Below are positions 44,276-63,467 of a stretch of 64,000 nucleotides of DNA, one piece after another; position 1 is the stretch's first letter; the number at the start of each line of letters is the position of its first letter. This stretch comes from Cutibacterium namnetense (lineage in GTDB: Bacteria; Actinomycetota; Actinomycetes; Propionibacteriales; Propionibacteriaceae), in NCBI RefSeq assembly GCF_001642025.1, contig NZ_LWHO01000001.1:124001-188000 (forward strand). The letters run 5' to 3'. Position numbers and translations under genes: made by a program. The notes under the pieces were generated by a model, which saw nothing but the letters and a program-made list of their open reading frames with translations, did not search any database and was not told where the DNA came from.

Positions 44276-46021
44276 TCAGTGCTGGTTCGACCACACCCGC
44301 CACAGCGCGGCGAACGGTCCATCGCCGTGACGCAGTTGCTCCGGCGGCCCGACTTCGACGATCCGACCACCGGCCATGACGGCGACCTCGTCGGCCATCG
44401 CCACCTGGGACAACCGGTGAGCCACCACGAGGGCGGTCCGTCCCCTGACGGCCTCGGCTGCGGCATGATCAAGAGCCGCAGCACCGGAGCTACCGGCTTC
44501 CGCCGTCGCCTCATCAAGGATGATGACGGGCGGGTCTGCCAGCAATGCGCGCGCCAGGGCGACCTGTTGTGCCTGGGCAGGTGAAAGGCGGGTTCCCAAC
44601 CGTCCCACCACAGTGTCGACGCCGTTGGGGAGCTGCTCGATCCAATCAGCCCCGACCCGCTCCAATGCCGCAAGGATGGCGTCGCGGACACGCTCGTCGG
44701 GCCAGTCTTCGGCCTGTGCGGGCAACCCCAGTGCCACATCGTCGAAGAGGGTGCCGGAGAAGGTGTGGATTTCCTGGCTGATGAGCACGGTCCGGGCATG
44801 ACCCGATGTCATGGTGACGGTTCCCTGCCGGGGTTCCAGCAACCCCGCGACGAGAGCCGCCAAGGTTGACTTGCCCGCCCCCGACTCCCCGACGAGCACC
44901 ACGGTGTGTCCGGCTGGAATGTCCAGACTCACCATGTGCAGCACATCAGGGCCGTCTTGATAGCCAAAGCTCACCTGATCCACATGAATCGCCGTCGGCC
45001 CGGGCTGGTACCGCTGGAGGGTTGGTGACTTGTCGTGGCGTGCCCCGATGACGCCCACCACCCGCTGCAGGCACACCCATGCAGCCTGCAGGTTGTTGAG
45101 GAACATGAGCAGGAACCGCACTGGAGAGAACAACCTCAGCAGCACCAGCACCGCCGCCGCAGCCGCGCCGACGCTCAACCGGTCGGTGGTCACGAGCAGG
45201 TATCCCGTCCAGGCGACGCCGATCGTCGCCACTGCCTCGCCGGCTAGCAGCCGCACGATGAGGGTGTTACCGAGGAACCGTCCGCGTAAGCTCCAGCGGA
45301 TGGCCTGCCACGATCCGTTGGCCACCGCCCGGGTGCGCAGGTTTTCCAGTCCGAAGGCGCGCACCGCGTCCACCCCGTGAATCGTCGAGAGGATGTGCTG
45401 GGACTGGGTCGTCGACGCGCTCCTCTCCGCCCGGTACACCGGTGGGGCCGTGCGCAGGAACTCCCGAATTGCGAGGCCATAGAGCACCGCGGCGAGGAGG
45501 ACGGGGACGAAGAAAAGCGGATGCAGGCTGGCCAGCGCGCCCACTGACACAATCACCATGATCATGGTGTTGACGAGTCGGGGGAGGGCGCCATTAGCGG
45601 CGTCGCGCACAGCCGTGACATCGTCGGAGGCCCGCGAGACCAGATCGGCGGTACCAGCCTTCTCGACCCGTTGCTGGTCCAGCCCCAGGCCGGCCGCGAT
45701 CATGGACTCGCGCAACCGGGTGATGATGGTCGTAAAGAAGGACGGCGTGAGGGACTGTGCGGCACCGTTACAGATCCCTGACCCGATCACTGCAGCAACC
45801 ATCACTAACGCTGGGGTGAGCAGAGCTGAGGTTGGGCGGTGAGCCTTGGCGGCGTCGATGATCCAGCCGGTAGCCACCGGTACAGCCAGATCGAGCAGGG
45901 AGGCCGCCGTAATCACCACGATTGCCCCAATAAAGTAGCCGCGCACTCCGCGTGCTGCCCGGTGGACCTCCTGGCGAACCTGGGCAGCAGTAGCCAGTGG
46001 CAACGAGCGGGGGAGGCTCAT
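44276..46021 (-). CDS. Half-ABC exporter with active Walker motifs, degenerate signature
   Basis: The 581-residue half-transporter has an ABCB-type transmembrane domain (residues ~30-310) and an ATPase domain. Walker A (GESGAGKST) and Walker B (VIILDEATAEAG, catalytic Glu present) are intact. The signature reads LSPAQAQQ where LSGGQ is expected. Its start overlaps the upstream half-transporter stop (ATGA). It is the last gene of the cobalamin-riboswitch operon. With its partner it forms one good ATP site. The exported substrate is unknown, and a corrinoid, tetrapyrrole or metal complex is plausible from context. Confidence 0.93.
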   Translation of the reverse strand: MSLPRSLPLATAAQVRQEVHRAARGVRGYFIGAIVVITAASLLDLAVPVATGWIIDAAKAHRPTSALLTPALVMVAAVIGSGICNGAAQSLTPSFFTTIITRLRESMIAAGLGLDQQRVEKAGTADLVSRASDDVTAVRDAANGALPRLVNTMIMVIVSVGALASLHPLFFVPVLLAAVLYGLAIREFLRTAPPVYRAERSASTTQSQHILSTIHGVDAVRAFGLENLRTRAVANGSWQAIRWSLRGRFLGNTLIVRLLAGEAVATIGVAWTGYLLVTTDRLSVGAAAAAVLVLLRLFSPVRFLLMFLNNLQAAWVCLQRVVGVIGARHDKSPTLQRYQPGPTAIHVDQVSFGYQDGPDVLHMVSLDIPAGHTVVLVGESGAGKSTLAALVAGLLEPRQGTVTMTSGHARTVLISQEIHTFSGTLFDDVALGLPAQAEDWPDERVRDAILAALERVGADWIEQLPNGVDTVVGRLGTRLSPAQAQQVALARALLADPPVIILDEATAEAGSSGAAALDHAAAEAVRGRTALVVAHRLSQVAMADEVAVMAGGRIVEVGPPEQLRHGDGPFAALWRVWSNQH

Positions 46022-47784
46022 GACAGCATTTTCCGGTAGTCGTCGCGGGCCAGCAGTTCGCGATGTGGGGCGCGTGCGATCTGGCGGCCGACGGCGTCGA
46101 GCAGCACCACCTCATCCATCTGGTCCAGCAGAGCCGGGGACGTCGTAGCGATGATGGTGGTGCGTCCGGCCCGCAGGCGTTGCATCTTCTCGGCGATGGT
46201 GGCGGTGGTGACAGCGTCGATGCTCGTAGTGGGGTCAATGAGCACGAGGCCGTCGGGAGAGTGCAGCAGGGCACGGGCCAAGGCCAGACGCTGACGCTGC
46301 CCCCCGGACACGTGGCGGCCACCCTCTCCGACGTTGGTCTCCAGCCCGCGTGGTAGCACGGCGGCGACGGTGTCTAGGGCGGCTGCGTCGACGACGGCGT
46401 TCAGTCTGGCGACAGTCGTCTGGCTGTCGAGCACGATGTTCGCGCGCGCAGTGTCGTCGAATAGTTCGGGGGAGCGGGGAGCCACCAACACCAGGCGGCG
46501 CCGCTGGGCAGGATTGAGTTTGCTGGTCGGAACTCCGTTGAGAAGGGTTCGCGGATCGTGGTTAATGGCCTCGGCCAAGGCATCACAGATCTGCTGAGGG
46601 GCCACGACCCCCAGGTGGGTGCCTCCGGCGACGTCCAGCTGGAAATCCTTGACCGGGATGTGCAACTCCACTGGACCGTCACCAGGTGTGGTGCGGGCAC
46701 CATCGTCGGGATGAACCTGCCAGGCAGCCGGGCTGTCACGCAACTCACAGAATCGGTCCCCGGAGGCGTGGGCGGTGGCCAGCATCGTCGCGGTGTCGAC
46801 GCCCAGTGCCCGCAGTGGTGGACCGAGGGTTTGGGCCAGCCCGACCACGGTGGCGAGTTCCCCGACGCTGATACGCCCGGCTAGGGTGAGCCACCCAGCC
46901 AGCACCGTCAGTGCGGTGATGAATACTCCCACCGAGGCGTTAATCGTCCCGGTGTAGATCCCTTTGACGCGCCGGGTGCGCAGGGAGGCGTCGAGGCCAT
47001 GACGACTGGCAGCCCGGAATCTTGCGGTGGCTCGACGTTGCGCCGAGAGCCCTTGTATGACCCGCAATCCGCTGGTGAGATCGGCGGCTGACCCGGCTAC
47101 GGCGGCCTCGGCGCGGCGCTCGCGACGAGTGCTGCGCTTAACCGGGGCGACCCCCTTCACCGACAGCAGGATGAGTAGCGGCACAATGCACACCGTTGCC
47201 AGCGTCAACCAGCCGTTGATGAGGGTCATCGAGATGAGGGCGCCGAGCAGGGTGACGACATTGCCGGGGATAGACGTCAGCGCGATGAAGGCTCGCGACA
47301 CCGCCCGCACATCCGTGACGACGACCGCGAGCAGGTCGCCGGGAAGCCGCGAGCGCCCGCCGATCCCTTCCGGGGCGGTGATCCGGGTGAGGGCCTGCAC
47401 GCGGAGGTCATGCTCGGCCACACCGGCCCCGACATTGGTCTGCATCCGTACCGTCTGGGCCACCGCGCGCACCGCGTAGGACAGCCCAACCAAGGCTAGC
47501 CATCCGGTCAGTGCCGCAGCATCGGCGGCCACCACCCCGTCGTCGATGGCGCGCCCCAAGGCCATCGGCACGCCGATATTCACCAGGCTGACGAAGGCCG
47601 AGGCGATCGATCCGGGCAGTAACCAGTGCCGCCCATCGCGGGCCATCCGGCGCACCAGTGCCCGTCCGTCGTGGGCGTAGGTGATGTCGATCAGAGGAGC
47701 ATCAATGGGTGGTGGGGTCTGCCTGGGGATGCGTGGCAGCCAGCGCAGCTTCGGTTGCCAGTGTCGGCGCGGGGTGCGTATCAC
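46018..47784 (-). CDS. Half-ABC exporter with degenerate Walker motifs, intact signature
   Basis: The 588-residue half-transporter lacks a P-loop: where GxxGxGKS should be it has GVVAPQQICDALAEAI. Its Walker B reads LVLIDPTTSID (the Glu is Pro). Its signature VSGGQRQRLALARALL is perfect. It therefore supplies the signature for the partner's ATP site and cannot hydrolyse ATP at its own site. A GTG start overlaps the ChlI-like stop (GTGA) and its stop overlaps the partner (ATGA). Six helices span roughly residues 50-330. Confidence 0.93.
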   Translation of the reverse strand: MIRTPRRHWQPKLRWLPRIPRQTPPPIDAPLIDITYAHDGRALVRRMARDGRHWLLPGSIASAFVSLVNIGVPMALGRAIDDGVVAADAAALTGWLALVGLSYAVRAVAQTVRMQTNVGAGVAEHDLRVQALTRITAPEGIGGRSRLPGDLLAVVVTDVRAVSRAFIALTSIPGNVVTLLGALISMTLINGWLTLATVCIVPLLILLSVKGVAPVKRSTRRERRAEAAVAGSAADLTSGLRVIQGLSAQRRATARFRAASRHGLDASLRTRRVKGIYTGTINASVGVFITALTVLAGWLTLAGRISVGELATVVGLAQTLGPPLRALGVDTATMLATAHASGDRFCELRDSPAAWQVHPDDGARTTPGDGPVELHIPVKDFQLDVAGGTHLGVVAPQQICDALAEAINHDPRTLLNGVPTSKLNPAQRRRLVLVAPRSPELFDDTARANIVLDSQTTVARLNAVVDAAALDTVAAVLPRGLETNVGEGGRHVSGGQRQRLALARALLHSPDGLVLIDPTTSIDAVTTATIAEKMQRLRAGRTTIIATTSPALLDQMDEVVLLDAVGRQIARAPHRELLARDDYRKMLS

Positions 47785-48767
47785 ACTGTCCTGCTAACTG
47801 AGTCGAGTGGGCGTCGCCTCATCCGGTGCGGCAGGACGAGCCGGGCAGCCTGGGAGAGGTCCTCTGTGGTGATCTCGGTGCGACCGTTCCAAGCTGCCAG
47901 GGTGCGCGACGCTCGGACCATCATGATGTCGGCGCGGTGACCGTCGACGTGGGCGTTGAGGCAGGTGCGAGCTGCCGTCATAAGGGTCTCATCGGTGATG
48001 ACTACCTGGGTGATGAGCTCGCTGGCACATCGGATTCGTTCGCCGAGCTCGTGGCCATCCTGTTCCCAGGTGCGCGAGAAGCCAGTGGGGTCGTCCTCGA
48101 AGGTCATTCGGCGCCGGATTACCTCAATGCGCTTGTGCGGGTCGTCCTCCCCGCTGACGGTGACGCATAGCCCGAAACGGTCGAGTAACTGGGGGCGTAG
48201 TTCGCCCTCCTCCGGATTCATGGTGCCGACCAGGGTGAACCGGGCTGGATGGGTAATACTGACTCCCTCTCGCTCTACCGTGTTGACGCCCATGGCGGCT
48301 GAATCCAGCAACAGGTCAACGACGTGGTCGTCGAGCAGGTTAACCTCGTCAACATAGAGGATCGCCCGGTGGGCTGTGGCAAGGAGGCCGGGTTCGAAAC
48401 GGCGCCGCCCCTCTCGCAGCGCCGTCTCCATGTCGAGGGTTCCTGTGACACGGTCCTCGGTGGCGCCGACTGGCAGCTCGACGACTGGAACTTGGACGGT
48501 CCGTGGAGTGGGCATTGGTTGCGGCAGCCCGAGCTCGGCGGCATGGTCGGGGTATTCCTCGGGGGACAGGTGGTAAGCCCCGGGTACCTCCTGGTGCTTC
48601 GGCAGCAGGGCCGCCAGGCCGCGTACTGCGGTGGATTTGGCGGTGCCCTTCTCGCCGCGGATGAGCACCCCAGACAGATCGGGGCTGATGGTGGCGAGGA
48701 TGAGGGCCAGCTTCATCTCCTCCTGACCGACGATGGCGCAGAAGGGGTAGACGGGGTGTTGTGCCAT
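47781..48767 (-). CDS. ChlI-like AAA+ chelatase subunit
   Basis: The AAA+ ATPase of about 328 residues has Walker A (IRGEKGTAKST), Walker B (ILYVDEVNLLDDHVVD) and a sensor region (LVGTMNPEEGELRPQLLDRFG). These mark the magnesium-chelatase I / cobaltochelatase small subunit. In actinobacteria this type pairs with a vWA partner and CobN to insert cobalt into hydrogenobyrinate diamide. ATG 48767 has AAAGGACC before it. A longer frame to 48911 is out of keeping with the family. Confidence 0.92.
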   Translation of the reverse strand: MAQHPVYPFCAIVGQEEMKLALILATISPDLSGVLIRGEKGTAKSTAVRGLAALLPKHQEVPGAYHLSPEEYPDHAAELGLPQPMPTPRTVQVPVVELPVGATEDRVTGTLDMETALREGRRRFEPGLLATAHRAILYVDEVNLLDDHVVDLLLDSAAMGVNTVEREGVSITHPARFTLVGTMNPEEGELRPQLLDRFGLCVTVSGEDDPHKRIEVIRRRMTFEDDPTGFSRTWEQDGHELGERIRCASELITQVVITDETLMTAARTCLNAHVDGHRADIMMVRASRTLAAWNGRTEITTEDLSQAARLVLPHRMRRRPLDSVSRTV

Positions 48768-48768
48768 A

Positions 48769-50745
48769 TCAGCGGTCCTTTCGGGGAGATTGGTGGGAAG
48801 GATCAAGGTGGGAAACGATGTTGACGAGGTCGTCGGCCCGCAAGTCATCGATGCGCAGACAGGGGCCGCCCAAGGCGGTAGCAATGTCGCGGGCCCGCGA
48901 CAGCTGGACACCGCGAGGATCCTCGGTGTCGATGACCACCCAGCTGAGTCGTGTGTCAGCGCCGATCTCGGTTGCTACCCGGATCGCCTCATCGGTGGCC
49001 CGGGAGTTGGGCTGACCGTCCAGACCGACGTTGCCGCGCCCGTCGGTCACGAGGACGAGTAGCGGTCGCAGTCCCGGATCTTTGAGGAGCAGGGGTCGCA
49101 CGACCTCGCAGGCCTTGACCAGCCCAGTTGACAGTGGGGTGCGCCCACCGATCGGCAGTTGTGCTAAACCGCGCTGTGCTACCTCCACTGAGGAGGTCAC
49201 CGGCACTAGAACTTCGGCCCGGTCGCGACGGAAACCGATGAGGCACACCCGGTCACGTTTGACGTAGGCGTCTAAGAGGAGGGACAGCACGGCCCCTTTG
49301 GAGGCGGTCATCCGGCCTCGTGACCCCATCGACCCGGAAGCGTCGACCACGAAGACCACGCAGGAGGCGGCTCGCCCGGCCCGTACCTTGGCCCGCCAGT
49401 CGATCGGCTTGACGTGCACCGCCACGTCAGGACGATCGTGGGTTCGACGTGACTTCTGATGAACCGCCGCTGCACGGAGGGTGGCGTCCAGGGCGAGATC
49501 TTCGGGACTGTCGGTGGGGCGGGCGGAAATGTAGCGGCCGCGCCAATCGCTGCTACGGGTGCGCAGTCGTCGCCCGGAAGCACGTCGGGCGTGGCGATCC
49601 TGGCCGGGCTCCAAGGGGCGAACAGCGAAAGGGTCACCGATGGCAGCTACCTGTTCGCCGATGCTTGATGGTTGATTCTGCTGGTCGTGCTGGCCGTTGT
49701 CCCGCTGATTGTGGGGGTCTTCCCGGTTGCCGGGTTGTTGTTCGCTTTGTTGCTCGCTTGAGTTGGCGAGCGGCGGGGCAGAATTCTCGCCCCCCTGCGG
49801 GCCTCCCGTCTGCGGGCTGGGCTGCTCGGGCTCCGGGGGACGTTGCTCGTGCTGGTCCGACTGATCATGAGAGTGTTGGCTTCGCGGCGGAGGAGGGTCC
49901 GACGGGGTTTCGGCGCGACGACGGTGTCGCAGCACCATCTCGCTGATCGTTAACACGTCGTCTTCGGTGGCGATGCCGCGACCGGCTAGGGCGGCGTGGG
50001 CTCGGGTGGCTTCGGCCATGACGATGTCGGCGCGGTGCCCGGCGACGTGGTTCTGCCGACACAGGCAGGAGATAAGTTCGGTGACGACCTCGTCAAGTCG
50101 GACGCTAGTGACGAGGTGTCGGGCCTTCTCAATGGCTGCGGCCTGACGGTCCTGGTCACCTTGCCAGCGGGCGCCGAACCCGGTCGGATCTGCGTCGTGG
50201 TCGAAGCGTCGCCGGATGATCTCGGCCCGGGCGCTCGGGTCAGACTCACCGTGCACGTCGACGCACAGCCCGAACCGGTCAAGCAGTTGGGGCCGCAATG
50301 ACCCCTCCTCAGGGTTCATCGTCCCCACCAGTACGAAACGGCTCGCCAAGGAGGCTGTCAGACCCTCACGCTCCACCCGAACCGTCCCAGCGCAGGCGTC
50401 AATGACGAGATCGACGAGGTGGTCGTCGAGGAGATTGACCTCGTCGACGTACAGCACCCCGCCGTCGACCTCGCTGAGCAAACCTGGCTGGAGCACTGGA
50501 CGTCCAGACACCAAGGTTGCCTCAAGGTCCAATCCGCCGACGAGACGGTCCTCGGTAGCTCCCAGGGCCAAAGTGCGCATGGTGTGACCGGGTAGCAGCT
50601 CGACGAGACCACGAACCAGCGTCGACTTGGCCGTTCCCTTCTCCCCGCTGAGGACGACCCCGCCGATACGCGGGTTGACCGCGCACAACAGCAGGGCAAG
50701 TCTGGCGTCGTCCTGCGCGACGATGGCGGTGAACGGGTAGGTCAT
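48769..50745 (-). CDS. ChlD-like AAA+/vWA chelatase subunit
   Basis: The 658-residue protein has an AAA+ domain (SGEKGTAKST, residues ~32-42; VLYVDEVNLLDDHLVD). A long Pro/Gln/Ser-rich acidic linker follows (~275-360), then a C-terminal vWA domain with the MIDAS motif VVDASGSMGS and later metal-site residues. It couples ATPase rings to the large CobN subunit. Its start shares a base with the CobN stop (TGATG), and one base separates its stop from the ChlI-like start. Both the AAA and vWA domains are complete. Confidence 0.93.
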   Translation of the reverse strand: MTYPFTAIVAQDDARLALLLCAVNPRIGGVVLSGEKGTAKSTLVRGLVELLPGHTMRTLALGATEDRLVGGLDLEATLVSGRPVLQPGLLSEVDGGVLYVDEVNLLDDHLVDLVIDACAGTVRVEREGLTASLASRFVLVGTMNPEEGSLRPQLLDRFGLCVDVHGESDPSARAEIIRRRFDHDADPTGFGARWQGDQDRQAAAIEKARHLVTSVRLDEVVTELISCLCRQNHVAGHRADIVMAEATRAHAALAGRGIATEDDVLTISEMVLRHRRRAETPSDPPPPRSQHSHDQSDQHEQRPPEPEQPSPQTGGPQGGENSAPPLANSSEQQSEQQPGNREDPHNQRDNGQHDQQNQPSSIGEQVAAIGDPFAVRPLEPGQDRHARRASGRRLRTRSSDWRGRYISARPTDSPEDLALDATLRAAAVHQKSRRTHDRPDVAVHVKPIDWRAKVRAGRAASCVVFVVDASGSMGSRGRMTASKGAVLSLLLDAYVKRDRVCLIGFRRDRAEVLVPVTSSVEVAQRGLAQLPIGGRTPLSTGLVKACEVVRPLLLKDPGLRPLLVLVTDGRGNVGLDGQPNSRATDEAIRVATEIGADTRLSWVVIDTEDPRGVQLSRARDIATALGGPCLRIDDLRADDLVNIVSHLDPSHQSPRKDR

Positions 50746-53700
50746 CAGATCAGCCCCAGCCCGGTCAGGTCGAGCCCACCGGCGAGGGACTGTGGAGGCG
50801 CACCCACCCGAGTGTCCGGGTCGGCGCGGGGGTCGTCAGAGACCTCTTCGATGGTGCCTTCGATGTCGGCGTAGGTGTTCTCCAGTTCCCCGACGGTGTT
50901 CGGATTGGCCTCCCAAACGTGGCGCTGGGCGGCGTCGAGTAGTTTGTCGACGATGTTGTGCAGGGCGTGCGGGTTGACTTGCCGGAACCATTCCTGCATC
51001 GCCGGGTCGAGGGCGTAACGACGCGCCACGGCTTCCCACAGACCGTCGTCGACGACGTCGGCGGTGGCGTCCCACCCGATGAGGATGTCGAGCACCTTGG
51101 ACAGATCACCGGCCCCCTTGTATCCGTGCCGCTGCAACCCCTCGATCCACGACGGGTTGAGGATTCGCGAACGCAGGATGAGGCGAGCTTCCTCCGTGGT
51201 GGTGCGCGTGGCGATGCGGGCCGGATCCGAAGAGTCCCCCACCAGCGACATTGGTGCCTCTCCCCGTACCGTCGTCGCAGCAGCGATGAGCCCGCCGTAG
51301 TAGTTGTAGAAGTCGGTGCAGCTGAGCATGTCGTACTCGCGGGTGTCCTCATTCTTGACGGTGACATCCATGCGCTTCAGGCTCGCAGTGAACCTTTCGG
51401 TCTCCACGTCCCCGAACACCCCCTCACCGTAAGCGTGGGAGGAGGCGGCGATGTAGGCCCTACCTAGGTCAGTCTTGTCCTGCCACGCTTTGGTTTCGAT
51501 GAGTTCTTCCACCCCGGCACCGTATCCGCCAGGCGGGCATCCAAAGACCCGGAGGGTGGCCTTGCGACGAGCTTGCTCGACGTCAACACCCTGGGCGATC
51601 AGCTCGGTGACGTCGGCCTCGACATGCGTGCGCAGCATGTTGTCGTCGTCAGGTTCTGGGAGGGTCGCGACCATCCGCACCGCCCGGTCGACCATCTCGA
51701 CGAGATTGGGGAAGGCATCGCGGAACAAGCCGGAGATGCGCGCAGAGACGTCGATACGGGGACGCCCCAGTTCGGAGGGTTCGATGATCTGCAACCCGCT
51801 GACGAGCCCGGAAGTCTCCCAGACTGGACGCACCCCCATGAGATACAGGATTTCGGCGATGTCGGCCCCGCCGCTACGCATGTTCGGGGTACCCCAAACC
51901 ACCACCCCGACGGTGCGCGGCCACGGCTGGTCAGGGTGGGTTTGGGCATACTCGCGCAGGAGTTGATCGGCCAATTCGATCCCTTCACGCCATCCTGTCG
52001 GGGTGGGCATGGTTTGGGGGTCCAGGGAGAAGAAATTGCGTCCGCTCGGCAAGATGTGGGCGTTACCGCGGCTGGGCGCTCCCGATGGTCCGGGGGCCAC
52101 GAACCCGCCGTCGAGAGCCGTCATGATGGCGTCGATCTCGTTGCTGGTGGCGTCTAGCCGTGGCATGAGGTCAGTAAGCACCCAGGTGAGCGTCTCGATG
52201 ACGTCGCCGCGTTCGGCACCGAGCTGTTGGCGGCACAACTGGGCGGCCAAATCGTGCGCTCCGGTACCGTCAGAGCACCTGTTGTGGTGGTGGGCGACAA
52301 CAGGGGTGAGCAGCTCCACGCAGCGGCGGTGCGCCTCGGCCATGAGCTGCCGGCCGGTCAGGCCATCGGGCAGGTCGGCGATGACGGGCACCGGCTCACC
52401 GGCTTTGGCACTGACCTCGTCGAGGCTGGTTCCCCAGGCATCCAGCACGGCTTCGCGCAGGGACGGTATCGGCCCGTTAGGCTGACGGGTGAGTTGGGCC
52501 ACGTACTCCACTTCGGCGGCGATCGGGTTGTCGAGGTCGGCGACGACCCTGCCCAGCACGTGCAGACCATCGGCGATCTCGCGGTCCTGCAAGTCGAGCA
52601 GATGGTGGTGGACCCTGTCGAGCACCTCGACGGGATCGGCGTCGACGTCGGCACTTGTCAAACCCAGATCGGTGTCTAGACCAGCCTCGACGACCGCCTT
52701 CCATACCTGCTTCGCGACGGTTCTGGCCCGCTGGGGACTTTGCGACTGTGCCCCGGCGTGTTCACGCAGGATGCGGTCGATCTCGGCAGTGGAGTCGTAC
52801 AACCCGGCCTGACGCATCGGTGGGGTGAGGTGGTCGACGAGGGCTGCGGCACTGCGCCGTTTAGCCTGGGTGCCCTCCCCAGGGTTGTTGATGAGGTATG
52901 GGTAGATGTTGACCATCCGGTCCAAGGCGAGCTCGGGGTAGCACTCCTCGGACAGGCCTAGCCCCTTGCCCGGCAGCCACTCCAGGCTCCCGTGGGTGCC
53001 GACGTGGATGACGGCGTCGGCCTTGAAGACGTCACGGATCCAACGGTAGTGGGCTAGGTAGTGGTGGGGAGGGGGAAGGAGGGGGTCGTGGAGGTCGGAA
53101 TCGGTGACGGCCTCGAAATATCCTCGCGGGGGCTGGATCGTCAGCAGCACGTTGCCGTCGAGGTGCCCGGCGAAGGAAAACTCGTCGTTGTGGACGAACA
53201 GGGTGCCCGGATGCGGGCCCCAGGCGCGGTCCATCGACTCGCGCACCGTCGGTGGCAGGGCCCGGTACCACGGGCGGGAGGTTGCTAGGTCGGCGTGGGC
53301 CTCGGCGCGCTGATGCATTTGCTCGGGGGTGAGCCAGCGCTGGTCGCACGTCAGAGACGACAACAACGCCTGGGCGATGTCGTCGGCCGACTCGAACTGG
53401 TCGGGGACGTCGTAGCCCTCCTCGGCCATCCGGATGAGCAGCTGGCGTGCCGACTCGAAGGTGTCCAGTCCGCTGGCACAGCCGATCCGGTCGTTGCGCG
53501 GCGGATGGTGGTGGAAAACTATCGCCACTTTGCGTTGACTGGCCGGAGTGCGAGCCAGCCGGGCCCACGAAAGGGCCAACTGGGCCATCGCCTCGGGACG
53601 ACCAGGGACGGGGACCAAGTGTGGCACGACGGCTCCGGTGAGGTCGTCGACCTTGTCAATCTCTCGGGTGGCCAGGAACTTGGTAATAAGGGCACCATCG

Positions 53701-54650
53701 AACTCCGGTTGAGCGGCCTGGGTGGCAACGTCCATCGCCCCCATCCCCTGGGCCTCCCATGCCGCATGCGGAGCATAAGAAGTGAGGGCATGCAACACGC
53801 TTACCCCGAGCTTCGGGTAGGCGTCGGCATTGGCAGGCACACCGACCGTCATGGACATGCCGTGGACGTCAATAAGAGTGTCGATGACGCGGTTGCCGTT
53901 CTCGTCGTACAGCAAGGTCTCCAGAGTTTGGGCCATGCCGAGATTGCCGCGGCGAGCGTCAGGCAGGCGCAGACAAAAGAAGGGCACGGTGTTGGCATCG
54001 AGGGCTTCAACCGCCTCAACGAGAGCCTCAATATGCGCGGTGTTGTGCTCCAACCAGTAGCTACGCGGAAAGGTGATCCCAACGGTGGGCCGATCGGGGT
54101 CTAGGTGGCACCGGTACTCAGCGAGGTTGGTGAACAGGCCGTAACGAGGATGCCAGATCCCCTCGGTGGGGGCGGGGATGACGTCGGGGATGGGGGCTGA
54201 TCCTCCGTTCACCCGGTCGATGAGGACCCGCAGCGCTGCTTCGACATTGTCCGGGCCGCCCATCTCCAGCAGCCCGACGAGACCCCTCCAGGTGCCGTCG
54301 TCGAGTCCGCTGGCCCAGTCCTGGGCGGCCAGGAGCCCGTCGTCATCACCAGAGGTGGGTTGGATGTGGATCCACGGCAGCGGCAGACCGGATTCGCGAC
54401 GGGATCTCCACGCCTCAATCAGCGCGGGCCATGCCGGGCAGGAGGTGGTACCGCCGTGGAAACTGAGCACCACGGCGTCACTGCGGGCGGCCGCCTGGGC
54501 GAAGGCGCGGGCCAGTTCCGGGTCGGTGACCTGCTCCTTAGTGCGGCCGAAGAGGGTGATATCGAGACCGATGGTGCGTAGCCGGGACAAGGCTTGGCTG
54601 ACGAGTGTGAGCTCGCCGCCGGTGGCAGAGAAGAAGCACAGGGTGGTCAT
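50745..54650 (-). CDS. cobN: Cobaltochelatase large subunit
   Basis: The CobN/BchH-family subunit of about 1,301 residues has the hallmark HVGTHGSLEWLPGKGLGLS, with GEGTQAKRRSAAA following. It binds the corrin ring and receives cobalt in aerobic-type cobalamin synthesis, driven by the AAA subunits. ATG 54650 overlaps the radical SAM stop (ATGA), and a longer frame to 54767 is a shadow of the radical SAM gene. A BchH-type magnesium chelatase is excluded in context by the cobalamin riboswitch and the absence of chlorophyll genes. Confidence 0.94.
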   Translation of the reverse strand: MTTLCFFSATGGELTLVSQALSRLRTIGLDITLFGRTKEQVTDPELARAFAQAAARSDAVVLSFHGGTTSCPAWPALIEAWRSRRESGLPLPWIHIQPTSGDDDGLLAAQDWASGLDDGTWRGLVGLLEMGGPDNVEAALRVLIDRVNGGSAPIPDVIPAPTEGIWHPRYGLFTNLAEYRCHLDPDRPTVGITFPRSYWLEHNTAHIEALVEAVEALDANTVPFFCLRLPDARRGNLGMAQTLETLLYDENGNRVIDTLIDVHGMSMTVGVPANADAYPKLGVSVLHALTSYAPHAAWEAQGMGAMDVATQAAQPEFDGALITKFLATREIDKVDDLTGAVVPHLVPVPGRPEAMAQLALSWARLARTPASQRKVAIVFHHHPPRNDRIGCASGLDTFESARQLLIRMAEEGYDVPDQFESADDIAQALLSSLTCDQRWLTPEQMHQRAEAHADLATSRPWYRALPPTVRESMDRAWGPHPGTLFVHNDEFSFAGHLDGNVLLTIQPPRGYFEAVTDSDLHDPLLPPPHHYLAHYRWIRDVFKADAVIHVGTHGSLEWLPGKGLGLSEECYPELALDRMVNIYPYLINNPGEGTQAKRRSAAALVDHLTPPMRQAGLYDSTAEIDRILREHAGAQSQSPQRARTVAKQVWKAVVEAGLDTDLGLTSADVDADPVEVLDRVHHHLLDLQDREIADGLHVLGRVVADLDNPIAAEVEYVAQLTRQPNGPIPSLREAVLDAWGTSLDEVSAKAGEPVPVIADLPDGLTGRQLMAEAHRRCVELLTPVVAHHHNRCSDGTGAHDLAAQLCRQQLGAERGDVIETLTWVLTDLMPRLDATSNEIDAIMTALDGGFVAPGPSGAPSRGNAHILPSGRNFFSLDPQTMPTPTGWREGIELADQLLREYAQTHPDQPWPRTVGVVVWGTPNMRSGGADIAEILYLMGVRPVWETSGLVSGLQIIEPSELGRPRIDVSARISGLFRDAFPNLVEMVDRAVRMVATLPEPDDDNMLRTHVEADVTELIAQGVDVEQARRKATLRVFGCPPGGYGAGVEELIETKAWQDKTDLGRAYIAASSHAYGEGVFGDVETERFTASLKRMDVTVKNEDTREYDMLSCTDFYNYYGGLIAAATTVRGEAPMSLVGDSSDPARIATRTTTEEARLILRSRILNPSWIEGLQRHGYKGAGDLSKVLDILIGWDATADVVDDGLWEAVARRYALDPAMQEWFRQVNPHALHNIVDKLLDAAQRHVWEANPNTVGELENTYADIEGTIEEVSDDPRADPDTRVGAPPQSLAGGLDLTGLGLI

Positions 54651-55741
54651 GATGCACACTCCAGACGGGCGAGGGTGCCGTCGACGAGGCAGGCTAGTGG
54701 GGTGCGGCGCTGTTCCGGGTCGGCCCAGGCGTTGGCCTCTACGCGGGATGGGCAGTCGCCGGGGCATCGCCCTGCTAGAGCACAGCTGTGGCAGGGCCCG
54801 TGCAAGGTGTGGCGATCCGGTGCGAAACGTCGCCGTAAGTTCTGCCAGTCGATGCTATGGACGGTTCCCGCCCGGGACGCCACATCCCCGACGGCTTGGG
54901 AACAGGGGTAGATGCTGCCATCGGGGGCGACCGCCATCGATTCCCCGACCGCCGCATGACAGTAGGGTCGGTTCGTTACGGGAAGCAGGCTTCGGCCCGA
55001 AGGGTCGACGGTGCTTGTCGTAGGTATCGGGCCACTGCGGAGCGCAGTTCTGACGGTCTCTAACTCTCGCCAGCGCAGGGGCGTGGCGCGCAGTGCGTTG
55101 ATCTGTGCCAGGCTCCGGTAGAGCGTGGTGATTCCGTCGATGACGGCCTGGTCAGCGGGGACGAGATCATCTCGCTCGGCTGCGTTCCCGATTGCCACAA
55201 GTGGGTCGAGCCCGAACCCGGTGATGTTGGGGAACCCCGCCAGCGTGAGGGCCAGCTCATCGAGGTGATCGACATTGCGGGCCGACAGCACCGTCGTTAC
55301 CCGCACCGGAATGTCGGCTTGGGCGAGCGCGAATAGGCCGCGGAAGGTCTGCGCTGCTGATCCGCGCGTCGCCTCTTGCACGGCGGGTGGCCCGTCGATG
55401 CTCACCCCGACCCGGAGGCCGTAGCGTTTCAGCATGGCGATCATGTCGCCGTTGAGGCGGGCGCCATTGGTCTGGATGCCGCAGGTGACCGTTGCTCCCC
55501 TGATTGCCACAACCCGTCGGGCGACGTGCTCGACGACAGAGGGCACCAGGGTCGGCTCACCACCGGCCAGTTGGACGTGGGCAGGCCGTCCGGTGGCTCG
55601 TGCACCTTCCTCGACGAGGTCCAAGGCGGCGTCTGCCACTTCGATGGGCATCCGGGCGCCTCGACGGTCGCGGCGGTAACAATAGGAACAGGCGAGGTCG
55701 CAGGCCGCGGTTGGCCACAGGACGAGGTAGCGCACGGTCAT
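54647..55741 (-). CDS. Radical SAM/SPASM-like protein
   Basis: The 364-residue protein has the [4Fe-4S] SAM-binding motif CDLACSYCY (residues ~14-22), LAGGEPTL for SAM binding and a C-terminal Cys-rich region (CHAAVG, CSQAVG, CHSCALAGRCPGDC) like a SPASM auxiliary cluster domain. Such proteins usually modify peptides, as anaerobic sulfatase maturases do, but no peptide substrate gene is apparent here. Both ends overlap neighbours by four bases (ATPase gene before, cobN after), so it is a coupled member of the operon. Its role in cobalt or corrinoid handling is unknown. Confidence 0.9.
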   Translation of the reverse strand: MTVRYLVLWPTAACDLACSYCYRRDRRGARMPIEVADAALDLVEEGARATGRPAHVQLAGGEPTLVPSVVEHVARRVVAIRGATVTCGIQTNGARLNGDMIAMLKRYGLRVGVSIDGPPAVQEATRGSAAQTFRGLFALAQADIPVRVTTVLSARNVDHLDELALTLAGFPNITGFGLDPLVAIGNAAERDDLVPADQAVIDGITTLYRSLAQINALRATPLRWRELETVRTALRSGPIPTTSTVDPSGRSLLPVTNRPYCHAAVGESMAVAPDGSIYPCSQAVGDVASRAGTVHSIDWQNLRRRFAPDRHTLHGPCHSCALAGRCPGDCPSRVEANAWADPEQRRTPLACLVDGTLARLECAS

Positions 55742-56736
55742 GGCCGGGTCTGCCCCTTCCGGAGAGCGATCAGGTGATCATGGAGTTGGGACAGGGTGAG
55801 CAGCACACGGTCGTTGACCGCCCAACCTTCGGCGGTGACGCTGATTGTCAGCACTTCCTCACCTGGCTGCTCGACGACCCGATACCCGGATCGGTTCAGA
55901 ACATGATGGGCAAGATCGGCGTCCACACCGTGCCCAACGACCCGTGCGACCGGACGCCCGGTATCGGACTGCCAGAAGGTGAGAGTGTGAAGGTCAAAGG
56001 TGATTCCTTCGGTGCGGAAGGCCGATTCGAGTGCGCCGTTGCGGGCTAGATCCTCCGGCCCTCCGATCGTCACGTCCGTGTCGTGTCCGGCTACCCATAG
56101 GGTGTCGGCGTAACGCATCACCGGCTCGATGTCATGGCTGCACACCACTACGGCGATGTTCCGGTCCGTGCATACCCCGCGCAGCATGCCGAGTAGGGCG
56201 ATCCGTCCTGGCGGATCGAGGAAGGAGGTTGGCTCGTCGAGCAGCAGTATGGACGGCTCCTGGGTCAGCGCTCGAGCGACCATCACCCGTTGGCGCTGAC
56301 CGTCCGACAGCTCGCCGATGAAGGCGTCGGCTAGATCGGTCGCTCCGACGGCTGTCAAAGAGTCATCGATGACGGCGTGGTCGCGGGGCCTCAGACGTCC
56401 CCCGATGCCAGAGTGCGGGTGACGCCCTAGCGAAACAATGTCTCGACACGTGAGACGAGCTACCGACACTTTATCAGTGAGGACGGTCGACAGGGTTTGG
56501 GCGATCTGACGGCGCGACATCCGTGACGTCGCTGTGCCGTTGAGCTCCACCTCGCCCCGTAGACTCGGCTGCAATCCCGCCACCGAGCGCAGCAGGGTCG
56601 ACTTGCCGGCACCGTTGGGGCCGACGAGCCCGACCATCTGTCCGGCCTCCACCGAGCCCGTCACCCCAGACAGCACTGTGGTGGTGTGGTGGCCTGACCG
56701 GTATCCGACGTCCAGGCTCTTTACAGCGAGACCCAT
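55738..56736 (-). CDS. FecE/BtuD-type ABC importer ATPase
   Basis: The protein has about 332 residues: Walker A GPNGAGKST, signature LSDGQRQR (Asp for Gly), Walker B ILLLDEPTSFLD and VCSHDIEPVM. A C-terminal extension of about 80 residues is not typical. Start ATG 56736 overlaps the permease stop (TGATG). With the FecCD permease and lipoproteins it forms a metal-complex/corrinoid importer. The cobalamin riboswitch and CobN point to corrinoid or cobalt complexes rather than ferric siderophores. Confidence 0.92.
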   Translation of the reverse strand: MGLAVKSLDVGYRSGHHTTTVLSGVTGSVEAGQMVGLVGPNGAGKSTLLRSVAGLQPSLRGEVELNGTATSRMSRRQIAQTLSTVLTDKVSVARLTCRDIVSLGRHPHSGIGGRLRPRDHAVIDDSLTAVGATDLADAFIGELSDGQRQRVMVARALTQEPSILLLDEPTSFLDPPGRIALLGMLRGVCTDRNIAVVVCSHDIEPVMRYADTLWVAGHDTDVTIGGPEDLARNGALESAFRTEGITFDLHTLTFWQSDTGRPVARVVGHGVDADLAHHVLNRSGYRVVEQPGEEVLTISVTAEGWAVNDRVLLTLSQLHDHLIALRKGQTRP

Positions 56737-57797
56737 CACGTCGCCTCCGCCTCCCGGTACCAACGGATGAGGATGACCATGACGACCGGCGCGCCGAACA
56801 CCGCATTGACCGCGTTGACGGGCAGCACATCGTCACCCGGCAGCTGGGCCAGAATGTCCGCCACCAAGGCTAGTGAGCCGCCCGTAAGAATGCACCCGGG
56901 CAGCAGATAGCGGTGGTCGGCGGTGCCCAGCACGCCGCGCGTCAAGTGAGGTACCGCAATTCCAAGAAAGCTGATCGGCCCGCAGAAAGCGGTGGCCGCC
57001 CCGGCAAGGATGGCCGTGCTGGCGACCAGCAGGGAGCGCACCACCTTGAGGTTCATCCCCATCGTCTGGGCGTACCGTTCCCCCAGTAGGAGGGCATTGA
57101 GGGGTTTGGCGAGCGGCAGACTGGCCCCGATCATGATCACCATAATCGGGACCATCACCTTGAGGTTATCCCAGGTCACGCCGTGGTAACTGCCAAACTG
57201 CCAGCGGGTGTATTGAGCAACGAGTTCTGGGCTGGCGCGCGACAGCAGTACCGTCACCCCCGACGACACGAAATACCCGATCATGACACCGAGCAGCAAC
57301 AGGATCGTTGAGGAGTGGATAAACCGTCCTGTCAGCATGACGATGCATAACACGACGGTCGCGCCTAGAGCAGCCGCAACCATGATCAACAGGTCCGAGC
57401 CGATGCCCAACCCAGAGGCGAAGGCGGCCGCCCCCATCGACGTGGAGGCGGACAACACCACCAGGGCGACGCCCAGACTGGCTCCTGAAGAGATACCAAG
57501 CACGTAGGGGTCAGCCAGTGGATTGCGAAATAAGGTTTGCATCTCCAGACCCGATATCCCCAATGCTGCTCCGACGAGCAGCGCGGCGATGGTGCGGGGT
57601 TCGCGAACGTCGCTGACGATCGTCAAGGCGACCGGATCGACGTGGGTGCCGCCGGTGATGATCGTCATGACGTCACCGATCGGGATGTTCACTGAGCCTA
57701 GGGCCAATCCGGCGAGGGCCACCAAGACGAAGATCACGGTGAGGATCACGAAACGGACGGGCAACGGTAGCCCTCGCCGTCGTCGCTGCGTCGTCAC
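56736..57797 (-). CDS. FecCD/BtuC-family importer permease
   Basis: The 353-residue protein has about ten helices and the family's LEMQTLFRNPLADPYVLGIS and GPISFLGIAVPHLTRG. The last cytoplasmic segment contacts the ATPase. Its ATG overlaps the lipoprotein stop (ATGA). A corrinoid-type import function is inferred from the riboswitch, because sequence alone cannot separate vitamin B12 from siderophore permeases. Confidence 0.94.
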   Translation of the reverse strand: MTTQRRRRGLPLPVRFVILTVIFVLVALAGLALGSVNIPIGDVMTIITGGTHVDPVALTIVSDVREPRTIAALLVGAALGISGLEMQTLFRNPLADPYVLGISSGASLGVALVVLSASTSMGAAAFASGLGIGSDLLIMVAAALGATVVLCIVMLTGRFIHSSTILLLLGVMIGYFVSSGVTVLLSRASPELVAQYTRWQFGSYHGVTWDNLKVMVPIMVIMIGASLPLAKPLNALLLGERYAQTMGMNLKVVRSLLVASTAILAGAATAFCGPISFLGIAVPHLTRGVLGTADHRYLLPGCILTGGSLALVADILAQLPGDDVLPVNAVNAVFGAPVVMVILIRWYREAEAT

Positions 57798-59017
57798 TTG
57801 GCGGTGGCCTTTCGGTAGAAGGTGAACTGGTGGTCGGTGCTGAGTTCAGGGTGAAGGATCGCCGACAGGTCCGCCAGCACAAGGTCGGGCCGGACGACAC
57901 CGGTCTGCCAGTAGTCGTTGCCGTGTCTCGGATCGGCGCGCAGGGTGGCGTCCCAGACATTGCCGGTATGCATCGCCTTGAGGGTCTTCATTCGCGGATC
58001 GGCCCTGATGATGTCGGGTATCGATGACTTTTCCGGTTCGTTGATCTGACCATCGATCCAGAAGTCGGCGTTGTGGGCTTTCTTAAGGATGGTCTCGGTG
58101 GTCATCTTCGACGAGGCCACCCCATGCACGTCTTTGAAGACGTACTCGCCGCCGGCATCGCGCAGGAACTGGATGGAATAGTTTTCGTCGGGCTTGATGT
58201 ACCAGATGCCCTTGAACTGGTAGCCGTACAGCACGCTGGGCCGCGTTGTCACTGTGGCGGTGTGCTGAACAGTCTGGTGGTACTTCTTGGCGATCTCGTC
58301 GTATTTCTGGTTCGCGACGCGCTCGGCATTGACGAACAGTGAGTCGTACTTGATCCATTCGGCGCGTCCCAGTGGGGTGTTCTCAAGGAAATCGGGCTCG
58401 GCGACTACTGGTGTACCCATCTCCTTGACTTTGGCGAACTTGCTCGGGTCGTCGTGGCCGCTGACGATGAACAGGTCGGAGCGCAGTGAGGCAAGCTTCT
58501 CGGTGTTGATCTCGGTGGTGCCGTCCCCGGCGGCGAAATCCGCGACCTTGTGGGCCTTGAGAGCTTCGCGGGTCTTCGGGTCGCCAACCCTGTCCACATT
58601 GGCCATCCCAACCACGGTGTCCAGCTTGTTCATCATCTGGAACTTCAAGGGTTCGGTGGTTGATCCGAGTGCAACCCGGGTAGTGGGGATGCTGATCCGC
58701 TGCGCCGTGGCGAGATCGCCGGTCAACGACGGCTTGGGGGCACCGCACTGCACCAGAACGTACGTGGCCTTCCTTGGTGAGGTGTTTGACGGGTGCTTGA
58801 TCGTCACCACCTTGTAGGACTTGTGATACGAAACCGTGATGCCGCGAGCGTCACTGAAAGTGGCCTTCTCGGGGAAGTAGTCCTTCTGCGGGTCGAAGTT
58901 CTTGATGCAGGACCGCCCAGACTGGGTCGAAGAGTCTGGGGACCCTGAGCACCCGGCGAGGGCCGCGAGAACCAGAGCGACGACTGTCAGACCCGCGATG
59001 GGATGATGGATGTGCAT
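57794..59017 (-). CDS. Importer substrate-binding lipoprotein 2
   Basis: The 407-residue lipoprotein has signal/lipobox VVALVLAALAGC and a periplasmic-binding-protein fold of the FecB/BtuF type (SVIS/TVVG-like pattern, e.g. LDTVVGMANVDRVGD). It is a close paralogue of the preceding gene: YFPEKATFSDARGITVSYHK here and YFPDKVTFTGAKEVSISYHK there, with QCGAPKPSLTGDLA in both. Two Cys (one in CIKNFDP, one in QCGAPKP) match in the pair and may form a disulfide. It is coupled to the permease. Confidence 0.9.
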   Translation of the reverse strand: MHIHHPIAGLTVVALVLAALAGCSGSPDSSTQSGRSCIKNFDPQKDYFPEKATFSDARGITVSYHKSYKVVTIKHPSNTSPRKATYVLVQCGAPKPSLTGDLATAQRISIPTTRVALGSTTEPLKFQMMNKLDTVVGMANVDRVGDPKTREALKAHKVADFAAGDGTTEINTEKLASLRSDLFIVSGHDDPSKFAKVKEMGTPVVAEPDFLENTPLGRAEWIKYDSLFVNAERVANQKYDEIAKKYHQTVQHTATVTTRPSVLYGYQFKGIWYIKPDENYSIQFLRDAGGEYVFKDVHGVASSKMTTETILKKAHNADFWIDGQINEPEKSSIPDIIRADPRMKTLKAMHTGNVWDATLRADPRHGNDYWQTGVVRPDLVLADLSAILHPELSTDHQFTFYRKATAK

Positions 59018-59053
59018 GCGTGCTCCAAAGGGAAGCCGTGGTGCGCGGCGGGA

Positions 59054-60316
59054 TCAGGCGAGCTTCTGGTAGTAGTACGGCGTGTACCCGGGCATGAGGT
59101 CGGGATGGAAGATGTACGTGAGGTCCTTGAGGACAATGTCGGGGTGAACGACTCCGGATTGCCAAAAGTCATTGCCGGTGTCGGGGGCGGTGCGCTTGGT
59201 CGGATTCCAAACCTTTCCCTTCTGGAAGGCCAGTAGGTTGCCGTAGCGTGGGTTTTGCTTCAGGGCGTCCGCCTTGGTTTTCCACGTCGTCATAGACATG
59301 TAGTTGCCGTTGAGCCAGAAGTCGGCCTTGGAGCCGTATTTGAAAACCACCTCCGAGTCGGTGGGAACGGCGCCGGTCTTCTTGACGGCCCCACCCATGA
59401 CATCGGATGCCCCGGCGTCGGACATGAACCGGATCATGTAGGAATCGGTGCCAGGAACGTACCACTGGCCTTTGGTCTCCTGGCCGACGAGGACGCTAGG
59501 CCTGGAGGTGCCACCCTTAGCCGTTTTCGCAACCTCGTCGTAGCGCTTGGTGATGTCGTCGAAAGCTTTGGCGCTCAGAGCCTCTTTGTTGAGCAGCACG
59601 CCGTAGGCCTTCATCCATTCGGCGCGGGCCAGCGGGTCGGACTCGAGGTAGTCGAGGTCCGGCATTACGGGGATGTTGGCAGACTGTACCTGTTTGAATC
59701 CCTCCACTGCGGCGCTGGCGGCGAGCACGATGTTGGGTTTAAGGGCGATGATCTTCTCCGGGTCGGTGTTCATCCCAGCCGCCCCGTAGCTGGCAACCTT
59801 ACGGGCTTCCAAAGTATCGCGAGCCGGGCCGCGGTAGATCTGCTTGAGCTGGTTGACGCCGACGATGGTGTCCAGGGAGTTGAGGGTTTGGAAGACCGGT
59901 ATCTGGGTGGTCGAGGAGGCGGCGACCCGCTTGACCGGCACGTCGACGATCTGGGCCTTGGCAAGGTCGCCGGTCAACGACGGCTTGGGCGCGCCGCACT
60001 GCAGCAATACCAAGGTTTGCGCCATCTTGCCCTTCTTGCCGAAGGTCATCACCTTGTAGGACTTGTGGTAGCTGATGCTGACCTCTTTGGCTCCGGTAAA
60101 GGTGACCTTGTCGGGGAAATAGTCCTTGTCCTTGTTGAAAGATCCTGCCGGGATGCACCCGGACATATTGGCGCCGGTGCCAGACGATGAGGTCTTCGCC
60201 GACCCCTCCCCGGAAGTGGAGCCGGTACCGGAACAGCCGGCCAGAGCGAGGCTGGGGGCGACGAGAAGGGTGATGAGGGCCGAGATCCTTCTCGACGCCG
60301 TCTTCGGAATGCTCAT
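59054..60316 (-). CDS. Importer substrate-binding lipoprotein 1
   Basis: The lipoprotein of about 420 residues has signal SALITLLVAPSLALAGCSG and a Ser/Gly-rich linker, then the same binding fold as its downstream paralogue. ATG 60316 has GGGAGAA upstream (the riboswitch expression platform). It is the first gene of the riboswitch operon. Two binding proteins for one permease suggest two ligand forms, for instance different corrinoids or cobalt complexes. It lies 36 bases before its paralogue. Confidence 0.9.
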   Translation of the reverse strand: MSIPKTASRRISALITLLVAPSLALAGCSGTGSTSGEGSAKTSSSGTGANMSGCIPAGSFNKDKDYFPDKVTFTGAKEVSISYHKSYKVMTFGKKGKMAQTLVLLQCGAPKPSLTGDLAKAQIVDVPVKRVAASSTTQIPVFQTLNSLDTIVGVNQLKQIYRGPARDTLEARKVASYGAAGMNTDPEKIIALKPNIVLAASAAVEGFKQVQSANIPVMPDLDYLESDPLARAEWMKAYGVLLNKEALSAKAFDDITKRYDEVAKTAKGGTSRPSVLVGQETKGQWYVPGTDSYMIRFMSDAGASDVMGGAVKKTGAVPTDSEVVFKYGSKADFWLNGNYMSMTTWKTKADALKQNPRYGNLLAFQKGKVWNPTKRTAPDTGNDFWQSGVVHPDIVLKDLTYIFHPDLMPGYTPYYYQKLA

Positions 60317-60325
60317 GCGGTTCTC

Positions 60326-60344
60326 CCTGCGGTCATGCCGCAGG
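60326..60344 (-). promoter_or_regulatory. RBS-sequestering hairpin of the riboswitch
   Basis: CCTGCGG (60326-60332) pairs with CCGCAGG (60338-60344) with a 5-base loop. On the minus strand the 3' arm ends in the GGGAG of the first gene's ribosome site (60323-60327). This is the expected off-state structure of a translational cobalamin switch. Confidence 0.65.
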
Positions 60345-60369
60345 ACCAGCACACATTTGTGCTCGGCGG

Positions 60370-60515
60370 ACCTCTGCGGCGAAAGTCGTCACTGCCCCTC
60401 CGCAGCAAGTCGACCGGGCTGAGCCTGGTGGCATCACCGTTGCGCGAGAGCGTCGGACTTGCACCGACTTCGCTCACTGTGGAGTGCCTCGGACCGAGTC
60501 CGATTCGAGGCAATC
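60370..60515 (-). promoter_or_regulatory. Cobalamin riboswitch
   Basis: On the minus strand the aptamer core reads GAAGTCGGTGCAAGTCCGAC (around 60450-60471), then GCAACGGTGATGCCACC, then a B12-box-like AGCCCGGTCGACTTGCTGC (around 60399-60418). A 5' hairpin GCCTCG...CGAGGC closes the other side. These match the conserved cobalamin riboswitch features in order and spacing. It precedes the ten-gene operon and should turn it off when corrinoid is plentiful. Confidence 0.9.
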
Positions 60516-63204: not shown

Positions 63205-63384
63205 GATTTACTCCTCGCGCGACTCTCCCGGAAGTTCTTCGGTGAACCTCGACCATCTCCACGATAGCGCTGCCGCAGCGCAATGGAACTTCGCCGCCAG
63301 CCTTTGCAGGAATTCTTAAGGTGCGCCGTCAGTTCTCAGCAACGGAGCACGAGTCCTTGTCACTGCAAGGTGCCATACTGGTCC

Positions 63385-63466: not shown

Positions 63467-63467
63467 G

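Follow-up and report, generated by a model that had tools for sequence, protein, structure and literature searches.

A conserved, corrinoid-linked operon of Cutibacterium pairs a radical SAM enzyme with a distinct subfamily of CobN

The default annotation of CobN-like proteins is cobaltochelatase of vitamin B12 synthesis. The stretch analysed here, 64,000 nt from a Cutibacterium genome of 2.37 Mb (the whole stretch is referred to as the window), carries ten minus-strand genes, running from 60316 to 44276, in which cobN and genes for ChlD- and ChlI-type subunits stand between an importer of the FecCD type, a radical S-adenosylmethionine (SAM)/SPASM enzyme and an asymmetric pair of ATP-binding cassette (ABC) proteins of the exporter type, EXP1 and EXP2. 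The operon is real, conserved and corrinoid-linked: the gene set recurs, the radical SAM gene and cobN stay paired, the CobN proteins form a separate clade with an altered motif, and a cobalamin riboswitch precedes the operon in relatives. The best reading is a system for cobalt handling or corrinoid salvage, related to operon-2 of Dehalobacter and equipped with a dedicated radical SAM partner.

The radical SAM gene adjoins cobN in all 12 orthologous loci, seven from Cutibacterium, four from contigs of deltaproteobacterial metagenome-assembled genomes (MAGs) and one from genome G075. Among 30 canonical actinobacterial CobN loci listed, from 56 matching genomes, none has a radical SAM homologue within ~1.5 kb. 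A first-pass annotation of this DNA had proposed the enzyme as a new member of a cobalt/corrinoid system, and had named orthologues consistently located away from cobN as one finding that would speak against it; the orthologues proved to be neighbours of cobN throughout, and the gene does belong with cobN. Within the genus, seven of nine genomes carry the orthologue (72–82%, matches at the level of hidden Markov models), while 28 other relatives have none, five of them with distant radical SAM paralogues only. Gene order is kept in the six other Cutibacterium operons, two of which (G006 and G004) lack PBP1 and have a single binding protein.

Outside the genus the system is scattered. A scan of GTDB contigs gave seven loci, three in Cutibacterium and four on the deltaproteobacterial contigs (39–50% identity), with the two genes adjacent in all four. 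A sample of 396 Actinomycetota genomes returned three matches at E <= 1e-40, namely the window's own, G075 and the distant G040. The G075 enzyme is 50% identical and is encoded in a full set of genes for binding protein, FecCD permease, importer ATPase, radical SAM enzyme, CobN, ChlD and ChlI; in a tree built by a quick method, with some long branches, it joins the Cutibacterium enzymes with a Shimodaira–Hasegawa-like approximate likelihood ratio (SH-aLRT) support of 97. Since only 1 of 66 genomes in the class around G075 (E <= 1e-40) and 4 of 40 in the class around G040 (E <= 1e-30) match, the system is sparse.

The CobN proteins themselves set the operon apart. In a tree of 31 rows, all 11 radical-SAM-linked CobNs fall into one clade with support of 100/100, apart from 14 canonical actinobacterial CobNs, and G075 carries one protein of each type. 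The L045 CobN, at a contig end, is counted for adjacency and lies outside the tree. Residues were compared between these 11 and 14 rows; the fragment L108, L037, G108, two G258 rows, G227, G538 and G040_C46 lie outside both groups. At residues 1106–1121 of the window CobN the clade reads YDxxSCTDFYN..GGL and canonical CobN reads HDxxD(S/A)DDYFQ(Y/F)HGGM, with SCTDFYN in the place of DSDDYFQ. Three cysteines, C391, C1038 and C1111, are invariant in all 11 linked proteins and absent from all 14 canonical ones; C71 and C435 are near-invariant (10 of 11). The radical-SAM-linked CobNs thus form a separate, horizontally scattered subfamily with an altered motif. Because the loop that corresponds to the altered motif faces the putative metal site in the HmuS structure, as described in the text of PMC12583661, the catalytic chemistry may plausibly have changed.

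In the partner enzyme, nine aligned orthologues share an invariant CxxxCxxC core and seven invariant C-terminal SPASM cysteines. A radical SAM core with a cysteine-rich SPASM C-terminus is common to anSME, PapB, AhbD and NirJ, the last two of which act on tetrapyrrole side chains according to the portions consulted of PMC10452713 and PMC12505453. The window enzyme differs from these in scoring under every named NCBIfam cut-off (among the best 25 of 65 families listed) and in showing no RRE-like extension or other leader-binding domain, the protein beginning at the radical SAM domain. PADLOC returned only viperin-like matches to the radical SAM core (49.5 bits), which were not taken as meaningful.

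Coordinates and family matches are collected in Table 1. The first-pass annotation had described ten minus-strand genes that nearly abut throughout; all ten are present and open, and eight of the nine junctions are tight (at seven, neighbouring genes overlap by 1 or 4 nt; at one, a single nucleotide separates them), the PBP1–PBP2 junction departing from the description with a gap of 36 nt. In NCBIfam the permease scores highest with BtuC (NF003001; 187.2 bits, cut-off 334). A convergent catalase gene adjoins the downstream end.

Table 1. Genes and leader elements of the operon, in window coordinates and in order of transcription after the leader
Feature	Position	Strand	Match or basis
Cobalamin riboswitch aptamer, adenosylcobalamin (AdoCbl) type, conserved across the genus but low-scoring in the window	60348..60513	-	RF00174 and orthologous leaders
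Hairpin that would hide the PBP1 Shine-Dalgarno region, predicted translational expression platform	60323..60345	-	Consensus fold, 8 leaders
PBP1, substrate-binding protein, 420 aa	59054..60316	-	PF01497, 76.1 bits
PBP2, second substrate-binding protein, 407 aa	57794..59017	-	PF01497, 60 bits
FecCD/BtuC-type permease, 353 aa	56736..57797	-	PF01032, 243.9 bits
Importer ABC ATPase, 332 aa	55738..56736	-	PF00005, 106.1 bits
Radical SAM/SPASM enzyme, 364 aa	54647..55741	-	PF04055, 64.1 bits
CobN, radical-SAM-linked subfamily, 1301 aa	50745..54650	-	PF02514, 1181 bits; TIGR02257, 876 bits
ChlD-type AAA/VWA subunit, 658 aa	48769..50745	-	TIGR02442, 760.8 bits (below cut-off 779.45)
ChlI-type AAA+ subunit, 328 aa	47781..48767	-	PF01078, PF17863
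EXP1, ABC exporter half, 588 aa	46018..47784	-	PF00664, PF00005
EXP2, ABC exporter half, 581 aa	44276..46021	-	PF00664, PF00005

The link to corrinoids comes from the leaders and from the neighbours. RF00174 matches lie before all six other Cutibacterium operons (G002, 31.7 bits; G005, 27.1; G003, 26.0; G007, 25.1; G004, 24.2; G006, 23.9), the first just over the cut-off of 31.5 and the other five below it, and a match of 27.9 bits lies in the leader of an operon remnant in G001. The G003 leader also matches the AdoCbl model RF01482, at 43.7 bits (E 9.3e-7 over 601 bases) where the cut-off is 50. Matches of the RF00174 type number 7–17 per Cutibacterium genome at E <= 0.001 (n = 9). The eight leaders align with a mean column identity of 83%, and the hairpin over the Shine-Dalgarno region is conserved (alignment columns 200–220), a position that suggests translational control. 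In L044 and L045, both Syntrophobacteraceae MAGs, strong cobalamin riboswitches precede the operon (115.8 and 119.3 bits). Expression of the Cutibacterium operon probably rises when vitamin B12 is scarce.

CbiZ is a cobinamide-salvage family. A CbiZ gene (PF01955) adjoins the operon in all three non-Cutibacterium loci that can be read that far (L044, L046 and, on the opposite strand, L053); the contigs of L045 and L047 stop too early. A CN-hydrolase gene lies between importer and radical SAM genes in the three readable deltaproteobacterial loci (L044, L045 and L046). With the same gene set under strong riboswitches and beside CbiZ, the B12/corrinoid context put forward by the first-pass annotation is borne out.

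The nearest described system is operon-2 of Dehalobacter restrictus (Rupakula et al. 2015; PMC4285132), for which the report's text describes a riboswitch, a FepBCD/BtuCD-like importer, two CbiZ proteins, CobN and Mg-chelatase subunits. It is stated there to rise 46-fold on average on corrinoid starvation, with homologues in Acetobacterium woodii, Clostridia and some deltaproteobacteria. The cobalamin riboswitch, the FecCD/FepBCD-type importer and CobN with ChlID are common to operon-2 and the window operon. The two CbiZ genes of operon-2 have counterparts in L044, L046 and L053 but none in Cutibacterium, and the running text of that report, with its figures outside the comparison, names neither a radical SAM gene nor an exporter pair. 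No paper on a radical SAM–CobN pair was found among the open-access papers searched, and the C. acnes riboswitch maps, in the portion of PMC9600381 consulted, mention ABC and cobalt transport but no chelatase. The window operon would be a new form of the CobN–ChlID salvage operon, one in which a radical SAM enzyme is the obligate partner, and it points to a hitherto undescribed route by which corrinoids or their cobalt are salvaged.

Corrinoid salvage in the broad sense is thus the reading that we favour, with moderate confidence. Its mechanism, including the substrate, the reaction, the direction of metal transfer and that of transport by the exporter-type pair, is one that we infer from families and context. 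Low adenosylcobalamin would open the leader and free the ribosome-binding site of PBP1, as the predicted fold indicates. The binding protein or proteins and the FecCD/ABC importer, judged by their families and the CbiZ neighbours, would bring in a corrinoid or a related cobalt tetrapyrrole. In the cytoplasm, CobN of this non-biosynthetic subfamily, driven by ChlI and ChlD, may handle the central metal of the imported corrin by cobalt insertion, exchange or removal. The radical SAM/SPASM enzyme, as obligate partner of CobN, could alter the corrin or its side chains, or mature CobN itself. In Cutibacterium, transport of a product, or of some second substrate, through the membrane would fall to the asymmetric ABC pair.

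Several observations weigh against this reading. At the Rfam gathering score there is no cobalamin riboswitch in the window; under relaxed settings the leader scores 19.1 bits with RF00174 (E 0.024 in 1.3 kb). The riboswitch of the first-pass annotation falls below the cut-off in the window, and elements at the same place precede the other operons and the G001 remnant; the window leader is credible as a riboswitch because those orthologous leaders match. The consensus fold of the eight leaders has 61 pairs, of which five vary on both sides, and its covariation term is -0.03; covariation being slight, the riboswitch argument rests on conservation. L046 and L053 have no cobalamin riboswitch at the gathering score. 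CbiZ is missing from all nine Cutibacterium genomes, and with it the cobinamide step of the relatives. Finally, the radical SAM protein scores nearer to peptide maturases (PapB, 103.1 bits against a cut-off of 340; AmcB, 85; DynA, 84.5; anSME, 71) than to the tetrapyrrole enzymes AhbD (50) and NirJ (47).

The role of the ABC pair is the part of the scheme with the strongest competitor. EXP1 has lost its Walker A motif, has DP at Walker B, lacks the catalytic glutamate and keeps the signature VSGGQ; EXP2 has canonical Walker A (GESGAGKST) and Walker B motifs and a degenerate signature, LSPAQ for LSGGQ. The pair would therefore form one canonical ATP site (EXP2 Walker A/B with EXP1 VSGGQ) and one degenerate site (EXP1 with EXP2 LSPAQ), as expected of the heterodimeric, asymmetric exporter that the first-pass annotation had recognised, and the asymmetry is kept in the window, the six other operons and G001. 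Heterodimeric exporters of the TM287/288 type likewise combine one degenerate and one canonical composite site; the window pair differs in that EXP1 has no Walker A at all and in its cobalamin control. That annotation had also counted the exporter as part of the system. This holds in seven of seven Cutibacterium operons and fails in the three other loci readable to the far end (L044, L046 and L053, none with the pair), and in G001 the pair outlives the other genes: the leader and ~20 codons of PBP1 are fused to a CobN fragment of 95 residues, followed by full-length EXP1 (83%) and EXP2 (80%). This state of G001 may have arisen recently and does not have to reflect selection on the exporter.

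IrtAB, YbtPQ and Rv1819c are importers with an exporter fold, and the pair could likewise be an importer, giving the operon two uptake routes; we regard this as possible but the less probable direction. Riboswitch logic favours uptake, the G001 leader now stands directly before EXP1–EXP2 with most of the operon deleted, and a related pair (32–39%) follows FecCD–ABC genes in G487. Against it, the nearest solved relatives are multidrug and lipid exporters (among the best 60 of 117 and the best 60 of 182 matches, a comparison that did not extend to the three importers named above), and in G482 a related pair stands apart, before an alanine dehydrogenase gene. The window's own genome holds a second, apparently decayed exporter pair at G000:C2:502730-504670 (L133), with an EXP2 78–81% identical and interrupted by an internal TGA, and the C-terminal part only of EXP1.

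A rather unlikely alternative for the operon as a whole is cobalt harvesting, in which CobN would act as a de-chelatase, as HmuS does on haem, the radical SAM enzyme would open or alter the ring, the cobalt would pass to de novo synthesis and the exporter would expel the metal-free remnant. De-chelation by HmuS, a member of the CobN superfamily, has been demonstrated, and HmuS and the Bacteroides proteins BtuS1/BtuS2 resemble the window CobN in serving tetrapyrrole salvage, not synthesis, and in their link to import genes (as far as the text consulted of PMC12583661 and PMC6460266 describes them). The scheme gives the exporter a job, and an import–chelatase module recurs in G003 beside HtaA with an HmuS-like DLDHYFEYLGG. 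However, HmuS is periplasmic or membrane-anchored and works without ChlI/ChlD (text of PMC12583661), which this operon keeps. The HmuS motif LSLDHxxEFMGG, with its axial histidine, is absent from the linked CobNs, the window protein reading LSCTDFYNYYGG at residues 1109–1120, and against solved structures the latter scores 709 (7c6o) and 626 bits with CobN but 371 with HmuS. A B12-short cell would also gain little from destroying an imported corrinoid unless the molecule were unusable.

The G003 module is an operon of its own (L037:4441-19492, in the order binding protein, FecCD, ABC, CobN/ChlH-like, ChlD, ChlI), with remnants in L038 (G007) and L039 (G005). It adjoins the gene for HtaA, of a haem-binding family, on the other strand, and may be a Gram-positive operon for haem or tetrapyrrole de-chelation. 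No riboswitch match lies upstream of its chelatase genes; directly before HtaA, at L037:4328-4479, is an element resembling the AdoCbl riboswitch (RF01482 at 38.2 bits, E 1.5e-5; cut-off 50), which would put a protein of a haem-binding family under B12 control.

More speculative still is the idea that CobN has a maturase of its own in the radical SAM/SPASM enzyme encoded beside it. The enzyme would modify the invariant Cys-Thr pair (C1111-T1112) of SCTDFYN and so create a thioether or modified-residue site, and the chelatase would handle the cobalt of imported corrinoids under strongly reducing anaerobic conditions. The best solved relatives of the enzyme's profile are 5wgg, which we take to be CteB (E 6.1e-25), and the anSME structure 4k37 (E 7.3e-21); CteB and anSME act on cysteine in polypeptides. 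Against the maturase idea, the G538 CobN beside a distant radical SAM protein (27% identical) reads DGDDFYSYQGG and has no cysteine at 1038 or 1111, and C391 occurs also in a CobN on another G040 contig (C46) and so is not exclusive to the close clade. If the idea holds, the CobN of this clade would be the first chelatase whose active site contains a residue made by radical chemistry, and it would represent a third functional type of CobN, next to those for synthesis and for haem de-chelation.

There is little to be said for an ordinary late-insertion cobaltochelatase of de novo B12 synthesis, co-transcribed with a transporter by chance; the first-pass annotation had read CobN and ChlID as a cobaltochelatase. 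CobN with ChlID is reportedly an accepted cobaltochelatase combination, by Rodionov's account of 2003; the window has the same subunits, and its CobN exceeds the TIGR02257 equivalog cut-off of 822.05. Against this stand the separate clade, SCTDFYN and the other clade-specific residues, the constant radical SAM neighbour and the occurrence of both CobN types in G075. CbiX is present in all nine Cutibacterium genomes (in the window's own, clustered with CbiG and corrin methylases) and intact CobN in seven (G001 has a fragment, G008 none), which makes the operon CobN unlikely to serve de novo synthesis, and on these counts we rejected the assignment. Propionibacteria are also described as early cobalt inserters in the text consulted of PMC3534718. 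CbiD (PF01888) has no match in any of the nine genomes despite CbiX, and its step must therefore be carried out in another way.

Haem-iron acquisition is less credible again: PBP1 has a weak IsdE match (31.2 bits against a cut-off of 298.65) and the superfamily includes HmuS, but homologous operons stand under cobalamin riboswitches and beside CbiZ, and a haem-only operon was rejected because the HmuS motif is lacking. Least credible of all is a ribosomally made peptide, such as a cobalt chelator, matured by the radical SAM enzyme and exported by the ABC pair: the peptide-maturase scores and the exporter downstream invite it, yet the PapB score stays below its cut-off, the protein begins at its radical SAM domain, a search confined to the window operon found no room for a precursor at eight junctions and 36 nt at the ninth, and G075 and the readable deltaproteobacterial loci keep the radical SAM–cobN pair without the exporter, so that a peptide cluster, too, was rejected.

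A few further features were noted. L046 also carries a NifH-NifD-like fusion and a NifK-like gene, and among four actinobacterial genomes with a distant radical SAM protein (24–28%) the fusion adjoins it in three (G040, G537 and G267). Fusion and NifK-like genes stand beside radical SAM or CobN/ChlD genes at L046:2813-6338, L054:4290-8046, L144 and L146; the NifH part is nearest to CfbC/NifH models, below their cut-offs, and the combination of chelatase and nitrogenase-like reductase recalls chlorophyll synthesis. Upstream of the leader, at 60596-61387 on the minus strand, a gene has a weak match (26 bits) to an AIR-synthase-related N-terminal domain and is still there in G001. A thiamine pyrophosphate (TPP) riboswitch lies at 63382-63476 on the plus strand (75.6 bits), and three further Cutibacterium loci have one close to the operon. 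Between 43900 and 61000 no sigma-70-like site was found (shuffled sequences, mean 2.1, standard deviation 1.5), which says little for a G+C-rich actinobacterium. A megablast search of a plasmid collection, phages not being part of it, gave no match to the operon.

These results describe a distinct CobN subfamily that is linked to a single radical SAM enzyme and to import genes responsive to B12; it occurs in bacteria of the skin as well as in anaerobic bacteria of sediments or digesters. The radical SAM–CobN pair is directly testable as an enzyme pair for the role of non-biosynthetic CobN proteins. Should the pair remodel corrinoids or re-metallate them, a new step would be added to corrinoid exchange in communities where Cutibacterium is a main producer of B12.

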